Source: Solirubrobacterales bacterium (GTDB lineage Bacteria; Actinomycetota; Thermoleophilia; Solirubrobacterales; Solirubrobacteraceae). From it: a stretch of DNA of 64,000 bases. Of this stretch, positions 8,856 through 11,322 are shown in pieces (within the stretch, counting starts at the first letter, position 1; every line of letters begins with the position of its first letter). The notes below the pieces were generated by a model that ran no database searches, was not told the DNA's origin, and was given only the letters and a program-made list of their open reading frames with translations. The stretch covers positions 1-64,000 of the forward strand of contig JAFAWR010000037.1 of assembly GCA_019241635.1 (NCBI GenBank). Direction: 5' to 3'. The position numbers and the translations under genes are program-made.

Positions 8856-10694
8856 ATGTTCACATCTCCGCGGGCGCCGGACACGACACTCAGCCCTCGC
8901 CTGATGACTCTCGCGCCGCCCTCACCCGCCGCCTCACCCAGCTCGGTCCGGTGCCCGGAATGCGACTCCCGCCTAGCTCACGACCAGCGCTACTGCGTCG
9001 AGTGTGGGGCGCGACGCGGACCGCTACCGCCGGCGATCGCGCCGCTGATCGGGGCGATCCGCGAGCAGGGTCGGGCCGCGGCCCTGCCGGCGGACGAACC
9101 GCTGGCCGGATCCCTGTCCGAGATCGGCTCGCGGCCAGCCCGGCACGAGTTCGTGATGCCCGGGCCGCGGGCGACGGCGGTCGCCGTGATGGGCATGCTC
9201 GGGTTCGGGGTGATCGTCGGCTCGCTGGTCGGCGGCACGCCGGTCGAGACGCTGGCCAGCGCGCCGCTGATCGTCGTCGGGCTGGATCACCCGGCCTCGA
9301 GCACCCAGGCCGCCCAGAACCAGACGGTGACCGACACGATCGGCGGTGGCGGCCCGGCGGCGGCGGCGAGTCCGGCGGCCGGAGCCTCGACCGCCCCGGC
9401 GCAGGCGGCGGCATCGCCGAGCACCTCGCCGACCTCGACCAGCACCACTGGCACCTCGACCACGCCCAACGCGAACGGGCTGCCGCCGGTCAAGCACGTG
9501 TTCTTGATCGTGCTCTCGGACCGCGGGTTCACTCGCTCCTTCGGCGCTGGGACCGCGGGCGGGTACCTGAGCGGGGCGCTCCGTCGCCAGGGCGAGCTCA
9601 TCCAGAACTACTACGCGGTGGCCGCCGCGCCGCTGGCCAACGAGATCGCCCTGGTCAGCGGGCAGGGGCCGACCGCGCAGACGGCGGGCGATTGCCCGAC
9701 CTTCTCACGGGTCAGCCCGGCTCAGAAGGGGCCTCGCGGTCAGGTGCTCGGCACCGGCTGCGCCTATCCCGCCTCCACCAAGACGCTGGCCACCCAACTC
9801 GCCGGCGCCCACGACACCTGGAAGGCGTACGTCGCTGGCGTGAGCAGCAGCGCGCGCACCGCGTGCCGGGTTCCGAAGCCCGGCAGCAAGCAACCCCAGA
9901 CGGCCGGGCCGCACACCAGCTACCTGTCCTGGCGTGACCCGTTTCTGTTCTTCCGCGGGCTGACCGCCGACGGCTCCTGCCGTGCGAACGAGGTCGCGGT
10001 CAGCAGGTTGGCCACGGACCTGAAAAGCGAATCGACGACGCCGTCGCTGGCCTACATCATCCCGGCGCCGTGCGCCGACGGCAGCGAGACGCCGTGTGAT
10101 CCCGGCGCGAAGTCGGGCCTCGCCGCCGCGGACCGTTTTCTCAAGTCCGTCGTGCCGGAGATCAAGCGCTCCCCGGCGTATCACGACGGCGGGATGATCG
10201 CGATCACGTTCGATCAGGCGCCGCAAACCGGCCCGTACGCGGACCCGAGCTCCTGCTGCAACAACCCGACCTCGTATCCGAACCTCCGGCGTCTGCCCGC
10301 GGGGTCACCGGCGGTCCCGCCGGGCGGGATGGGAGCGCCCACGACGACCACGTCCACCGACACGACCTCGACGACCGCCACGACGACCCCGGCACCCACC
10401 GGCTCGACGACGACCACCGGGACCACGACGCCGACGACGCCGACAACGACGCCCACCACCCCGTCCTCCCTGGGCGCCGGCGCGACCAGCCCGACCGGCG
10501 GCGGCGGCCAGGTCGGCCTGCTCCTGATCTCACCGTTCGTCAAGCGGAACAGCAGCGACGTGGTCGACTACTTCAACCACTTCTCGCTGCTGGCCACGCT
10601 CGAGGAGCTGTTCGGGCTGCACCGCCTCGGCTACGCCGGCGCGCCGGGTCTCCCGGTGTTCGGCGCGGCCGTATTCACCGCCTACGCCGGCTAG
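8856..10694 (+). CDS. Zinc-ribbon/TM/phosphoesterase-like (PF04185-type) protein, likely degenerate active site
   Basis: N-terminal CPECDSRLAHDQRYCVECGARRG; TM; C-terminal phosphoesterase-like blocks (YPASTKTLATQL, FLKSVVPEI, LLLISPFVK, NHFSLLATLEELFGLHRLGYAG) with Thr-rich insert. Confidence 0.82.
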   Translation: MFTSPRAPDTTLSPRLMTLAPPSPAASPSSVRCPECDSRLAHDQRYCVECGARRGPLPPAIAPLIGAIREQGRAAALPADEPLAGSLSEIGSRPARHEFVMPGPRATAVAVMGMLGFGVIVGSLVGGTPVETLASAPLIVVGLDHPASSTQAAQNQTVTDTIGGGGPAAAASPAAGASTAPAQAAASPSTSPTSTSTTGTSTTPNANGLPPVKHVFLIVLSDRGFTRSFGAGTAGGYLSGALRRQGELIQNYYAVAAAPLANEIALVSGQGPTAQTAGDCPTFSRVSPAQKGPRGQVLGTGCAYPASTKTLATQLAGAHDTWKAYVAGVSSSARTACRVPKPGSKQPQTAGPHTSYLSWRDPFLFFRGLTADGSCRANEVAVSRLATDLKSESTTPSLAYIIPAPCADGSETPCDPGAKSGLAAADRFLKSVVPEIKRSPAYHDGGMIAITFDQAPQTGPYADPSSCCNNPTSYPNLRRLPAGSPAVPPGGMGAPTTTTSTDTTSTTATTTPAPTGSTTTTGTTTPTTPTTTPTTPSSLGAGATSPTGGGGQVGLLLISPFVKRNSSDVVDYFNHFSLLATLEELFGLHRLGYAGAPGLPVFGAAVFTAYAG

Positions 10695-10858
10695 TGGTCG
10701 CCGCCGTAAGTACGGTCGCACCGAGAGGTGTCACTGGCGGATGCTGCGCGAGGACGCAGGATCCGATGCGTAGCAGCGCTACGTGAGGATCCGAGGACAA
10801 AGCGCAGCGCCGCCAGGGGCGCCTCGAATGCGAGCGTAATTGCGGCGGCGACCACTAG
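10691..10858. repeat. 168-bp imperfect palindrome (MITE-like or structured element)
   Basis: CTAGTGGTCGCCGCCGtAAgTACGgTCG ... CGAgCGTAaTTgCGGCGGCGACCACTAG, internal paired blocks CTGGCGG, GCTGCGC, GGATCC, CGTAGC/GCTACG. Confidence 0.85.
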
Positions 10859-10863
10859 ATGGT

Positions 10864-11322
10864 CTAGTCGCCCAGGTCGATCGACTCGATCACCGGCGGG
10901 TCGTTGGGTCGGTCGCCGGCGCCGGTCGGCAGCGCCTCGATCTTGTCGACCGTGTCCATCCCGTCGGTCACCCGGCCGAACACGGTGTGCTTGCCGTCGA
11001 GCCAGGGCGCGGCCTGGATGGTGACGATGAAGAACTGCGAGCCGTTGGTGCCCGGCCCGGCGTTGGCCATGGCCAGCGCACCGCGCACGACCTTGTGCGC
11101 GTTGAACTCGTCGCCGAATGTGTAGCCGGGGCCGCCCATGCCGGTGCCCTCGGGGCAGCCGCCCTGGATCATGAAGTCGGGAATCACCCGGTGAAAGATG
11201 ATCCCGTCGTAGAAGTGATCGCCGGCCAGCTTGCGAAAGTTGGCGACGGTCTCGGGCGCGTCGTCGTCGAAGAACTCGAGTTCGATCGTGCCCAGGCTGG
11301 TGTTCATTTTCGCTGTAGACAT
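10864..11322 (-). CDS. Cyclophilin-type peptidyl-prolyl cis-trans isomerase
   Basis: [43 protein letters not shown]. Confidence 0.95.

Follow-up and report, generated by a model that had tools for sequence, protein, structure and literature searches.

A probable IS630-type MITE of about 166 nt with a conserved plus-strand fold, widespread in a bacterial phylum

Bacterial MITEs are usually recognised by their conserved sequence. Several small repeats offer themselves for comparison with the element described here; they are likened to it by anatomy, from their descriptions and not by sequence. The repeat unit of pneumococcus, RUP, is 107 bp long and is linked to IS630-Spn1 (PMC2229807, PMC3049150). 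The ERIC repeat of enterobacteria (also IRU or RU-1) is a 127-bp near-palindrome with TA ends and an RNA fold, and in Yersinia its orientation matters for its effect on upstream mRNA (PMC2229807).

As far as the available text of these two papers describes the repeats, our element resembles each of them in part. It shares with RUP a size of roughly 100–200 bp, the lack of an open reading frame, dispersed copies, TA ends, IS630-like terminal repeats and a stable hairpin. The Correia or NEMIS repeats of Neisseria are likewise small and TA-ended, with a long stem-loop (PMC2229807), and near-palindromy, TA ends and a fold recur in ERIC. The BOX repeat of pneumococcus supplies the stop codon of the preceding gene in 36 cases (PMC3049150), as the element also does for many of its neighbours.

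The element in the window and its neighbours

The window is a stretch of 64,000 nt from a Solirubrobacterales bacterium (assembly GCA_019241635.1, contig JAFAWR010000037.1, positions 1 to 64,000). Within it, the original prediction had singled out positions 10691–10858 as a potential long hairpin with perfect 16-bp arms, CTAG at its ends and the upstream stop codon in its left end, and each of these points holds. CTAG stands at both ends, the outer 16-bp arms are perfect, and the computed fold of positions 10681–10868 is one hairpin of −133.1 kcal/mol, more stable than any of 200 dinucleotide shuffles (mean −77.1, z = −12.8). One BLAST match in the own genome is the reverse complement of the element itself, at 71% identity, so that the segment is an imperfect palindrome.

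The entire repeated element runs from TA to TA over 166 nt (10692–10857), as delimited by the covariance-model match and by the copies in its own genome and in relatives. It is given here on the plus strand, the strand with the conserved fold, as are all the internal parts below. The duplicated target comprises a left TA (10692–10693) and a right TA (10856–10857), both assigned in the window copy by analogy with the empty sites of other copies, which carry a single TA within CTAG. The outer left arm (10694–10719) pairs with the right arm in all copies, and its first 20 nt resemble IS630 terminal repeats; its complement, the outer right arm (10830–10855), is defined by the fold of the window and by the pairing in the copies. 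The 5' side of a conserved internal loop, GAGGACGCAG, lies at 10750–10759, in columns that are at least 90% conserved or invariant in 49 divergent copies. The 3' side, GAGGAC, lies at 10793–10798 in conserved columns, and pairs 61-107 and 64-104 are invariant in 33 copies. At the tip, a 7-bp covarying stem carries an AGC loop (10768–10784); this stem, helix 5, has double changes in four of its seven pairs and is paired in 100% of cells.

In the list of open reading frames, the element lies between convergent genes. The upstream frame (8856–10694, plus strand), which the original prediction took for a phosphoesterase, ends in a TAG at 10692–10694, the first three bases of the 166-nt unit. It also encodes a long threonine/serine-rich linker (about 10360–10480) ahead of its last conserved stretch. 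The downstream gene (10864–11322, minus strand), a cyclophilin-type peptidyl-prolyl isomerase by sequence, ends 6 nt from the element and is conserved in 33 of the 35 genomes searched.

Copies, target site and the probable link to IS630 transposases

The own genome holds about 15 copies: the 166-nt unit has 13 further BLAST places and 15 covariance-model matches. The flanks of the copies are unrelated to one another, as in a dispersed repeat. BLAST finds the element in 17 of 61 genomes of relatives, and covariance models reach across the phylum. Model R1, built from 33 copies, finds full-length relatives in 55 of 121 genomes of the family (19 of 25 genera) and has matches in 43 of 398 sampled genomes of the phylum. 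On the same phylum sample, model R2, built from 49 divergent copies, finds full-length relatives in 60 genomes, covering 51 of 238 genera. Since the sequence of both arms has been replaced while length and fold were kept, sequence searches see only part of the family. Searches of plasmid and phage collections gave no match to the element; against Rfam, the window had none up to E = 1, and 14 loci had none at gathering scores.

Length is narrowly distributed, with 93 of the 157 copies examined being exactly 166 nt long and 147 falling within 161–169 nt. Among the exceptions, variants of about 226 nt (L056, L060, L061, L078 and L080) have an additional GC-rich hairpin, some 60 nt long, inserted behind GAGGAC on the 3' side, two copies of 284–292 nt (L051 and L082) have two such extra hairpins inserted, and one short form of 101 nt (L028, 1500–1600) is without the tip. 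A longer element with widely separated halves was sought among partial BLAST matches, which yielded only the copies with small inserts (226–292 nt). Some copies may form local clusters: in the right flank of L024/L074, gtggtctgtccc is the apparent start of another copy directly after the first, and three copies lie within 2.4 kb on one contig (G069:C26; L185, L186). An 8.6-Mb genome from a distant family (G501) has at least seven full-length copies.

The target was read from empty sites, by searching the joined flanks of copies in one genome (G100) against its genus. At locus L168, three relatives (L249, L250 and L252) show a single CTAG followed by the right flank, and at L163 a further relative (L256) shows the same; at L158 the relative L272 has CTA at the joint. 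Thus single CTAG or CTA occurs in five relatives at three loci. Two more loci (L165 and L166) were left out because their joined-flank alignments were too gapped. The filled sites read C-TA-(162 nt)-TA-G (at L158, TA then C), which set against the empty sites means that the TA was duplicated. For the window copy, a joined-flank search found the upstream gene not adjacent to the isomerase gene in relatives, and the evidence is therefore taken from the other copies.

Over all copies, TA stands at 197 of 314 element ends, most commonly in the form CTA (135). Fourteen copies are bounded left and right by the same trinucleotide, TTA or TAA, a pattern not expected under a strict TA model. About one third of the ends are not TA, yet fit T-N-A. 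In several copies CAT precedes CAGTG, that is, a start codon of the opposite strand lies immediately beside the element. In 71 of 136 classified copies, an element end contains the stop codon of a neighbour. The base of the element that follows the TA is a G, and a stop codon hit at its TA therefore still reads TAG. Target choice accounts for part of the overlap, since 21 of the 60 CTAG sites taken as background outside genes are themselves stop codons. The element thus inserts into TA, preferably in CTAG, and duplicates the TA, often in a TAG stop codon which it restores.

The ends of the element also resemble those of IS630 elements. In relatives, inverted repeats flank the IS630-family genes (DDE_3), mostly with TA-GTG as their first bases. 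When 22 such ends are compared over their first 20 bases with the element arm that fits each best, a mean of 15.8 positions agree, against a mean of 12.8 and a maximum of 13.4 in 50 trials with the element arms shuffled after GTG. In one genome (G030) 17 of 20 positions agree between an IS630 (L287) and a co-resident element (L151), a resemblance and not an identity. A DDE_3 gene is present in 10 of 18 other carriers tested; none was found in the own genome, whose assembly is 75% complete, and several copy-rich genomes (e.g. G007, G009 and G122) have none. From the likeness of the ends we infer that the elements are probably moved in trans by an IS630/Tc1-mariner-type transposase. The family is short, dispersed, multi-copy and without its own transposase, inserts into TA and has IS630-like terminal repeats, as an IS630-type MITE does. 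The suggestion in the original prediction of a non-autonomous IS630-type MITE inserted at CTAG/TA thus gains support from the dispersed copies, the single-CTAG empty sites and the arms.

Pairing, internal loop and strand

In an alignment of 33 copies (A1), the consensus structure has 58 pairs; 95.1% of cells are paired accordingly, and 38 of the 58 show double changes. The covariation score is 0.479, against 0.180 in shuffled alignments and at most 0.101 for slid structures; as the copies are related and not independent, such shuffle controls are lenient and overstate significance. Changes in the outer arms could come from exchange of terminal repeats, and the interior was therefore scored separately. 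It alone shows double changes in 18 of 34 pairs and a score of 0.417 against 0.170 shuffled; the number of pair types in the interior is not above that of shuffles (465 of 500 reach it).

Across the phylum the arms can hardly be recognised by sequence, yet 25 of 25 distant copies fold end to end; the two arms change in concert, and the total length remains close to 166 nt. In the 49 divergent copies, the columns that are invariant or almost so lie mostly in or next to two facing GAGGAC strands, most of whose columns are at least 90% conserved. Facing each other, the strands could form G-C, G-A, A-G and C-G, and hence tandem G-A pairs, an arrangement common in RNA. Some of the most distant copies (e.g. 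L132 and L136) differ at this loop.

The two strands of the element differ in the mismatches they tolerate. When positions 3–20 are simply paired with their mirror positions, without fitting a structure, 64 divergent copies together show 151 G-U and 10 A-C pairs; counted by genome, G-U is in excess in 41, A-C in one, and five are tied. Among the consensus pairs of the interior, G-U outnumbers A-C by 101 to 2, or by 41 to 2 once those pairs are excluded in which G-U is the most frequent type. The strand with the G-U excess is the plus strand of the window. Selection on double-stranded DNA would treat G-U and A-C alike, and the excess therefore points to selection on one folded strand, with RNA most likely the selected form. 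It is thus plain that, in dispersed copies and over its full length, the plus strand preserves its pairing as the sequence changes, accepts G-U but not A-C, and encloses an internal loop that is conserved.

Orientation adds to this picture. Of 60 copies between closely spaced genes of the same strand, 42 have the plus strand antisense and 18 sense (p = 0.003, from simple gene calls and copies that are not fully independent). The bias is as expected if RNA from the plus strand disturbs operon transcripts. The structured RNA that had been proposed as an alternative to a MITE is supported alongside it, not instead of it, by the strong covariation and the one-strand G-U excess. Copies, homologues and covariation were all found, where a single-copy segment with neither homologues nor covariation would have spoken against the original prediction.

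Explanations weighed and comparison with known repeats

We consider it probable that the segment is one copy of a widespread, non-autonomous transposable family of about 166 nt, an IS630-type MITE, whose plus strand folds, probably as RNA, under selection. The following steps are proposed. An IS630/Tc1-mariner-type transposase would move the elements in trans into TA, duplicating it. The plus strand would be transcribed, and the RNA would fold into a long rod with a tandem G-A loop, which a protein or nuclease may recognise. The likeliest use of the RNA would be selfish: it may make insertions at gene ends tolerable, through transcript ending, protection or processing, or it may aid propagation.

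It is unlikely that we are dealing with an ordinary IS630-type MITE, in which long terminal inverted repeats give rise to the hairpin incidentally, the arms of subfamilies track different transposases and the RNA has no function. The target, the TA duplication and the IS630-like arms need nothing more than this, and comparable repeats (RUP, Correia and ERIC) fold too, according to the available text of PMC2229807; but the interior, beyond the ends expected to bind a transposase, also covaries, the one-strand excess of G-U over A-C is not predicted by double-stranded repeat exchange, and both the internal loop and the element length are kept throughout the phylum. The selected form could instead be single-stranded DNA, a plus-strand hairpin recognised in replication or transposition. 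Folded DNA, too, tolerates G-T better than A-C, so that the one-strand signal by itself does not separate DNA from RNA, and the first four copies in one genome (G439) all lay on one strand, later matches there lying on both. We nevertheless regard this as very improbable, since the TA duplication and IS630-like ends point to double-stranded cut-and-paste and the preference for the antisense orientation in operon-like gaps suggests that transcripts are affected.

Scarcely credible is a role in the service of the host, in which the element would be retained at gene ends because, for instance, it terminates transcription in both directions or stabilises mRNA. The frequent stop codons in element ends and the position of the window copy between convergent genes would suit it. 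Against it, copies are missing in close relatives, target choice explains part of the stop-codon overlap, the antisense orientation is favoured in same-strand gaps, and no T-run follows the hairpin. In the window the sequence there is GATGGTCTAGTC, which varies between copies, so that the terminator option of the original prediction, in the sense of a classic intrinsic terminator, is unsupported. Two other candidates were set aside: an attC-like cassette site, because of the TA at either end and the ordinary chromosomal genes alongside, and template-switch repair of quasi-palindromes, because mismatched loop positions are conserved and such repair predicts no G-U excess.

Beyond the preferred reading of an IS630-type MITE with a selected plus-strand fold, we put forward, tentatively and at somewhat less than even chances, the idea of a transposable structured RNA. 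This would be a mobile element in which the fold of the plus-strand RNA, and not the sequence, is conserved: a rod some 166 nt long that contains a tandem G-A loop. It would have spread through the phylum on interchangeable IS630-type ends, and its RNA would either be required for propagation or act on neighbouring genes as a mobile regulator. If the one-strand signal reflects a functional RNA, then Rfam lacks a mobile non-coding RNA that is widespread, and compensatory mutations would offer a direct test of the long-standing question whether the hairpins of MITEs act as RNA.

Set against the known repeats as the available text describes them, the element departs from each. RUP is confined to pneumococcus and close kin, whereas the element is about 166 nt long and phylum-wide, and has arms that turn over while staying paired, a conserved internal loop, and an excess of G-U on one strand. 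The Correia or NEMIS repeats differ in their 24-bp terminal repeat, and a longer form of them, enlarged internally by about 50 bp, may be compared with the 226-nt form of the element (PMC2229807). BOX is modular in build and linked to ISSpn2 rather than IS630 (PMC3049150). ERIC differs in length and host range, and its effect on RNA is experimental, whereas that of the element is a prediction from sequence patterns. A conserved loop, a one-strand wobble excess and paired-arm turnover are described for none of RUP, Correia and ERIC in the available text of PMC2229807 and PMC3049150, subscription literature lying mostly outside the search. Although it fits no Rfam family, the element appears to work like the RUP, Correia and ERIC repeats.
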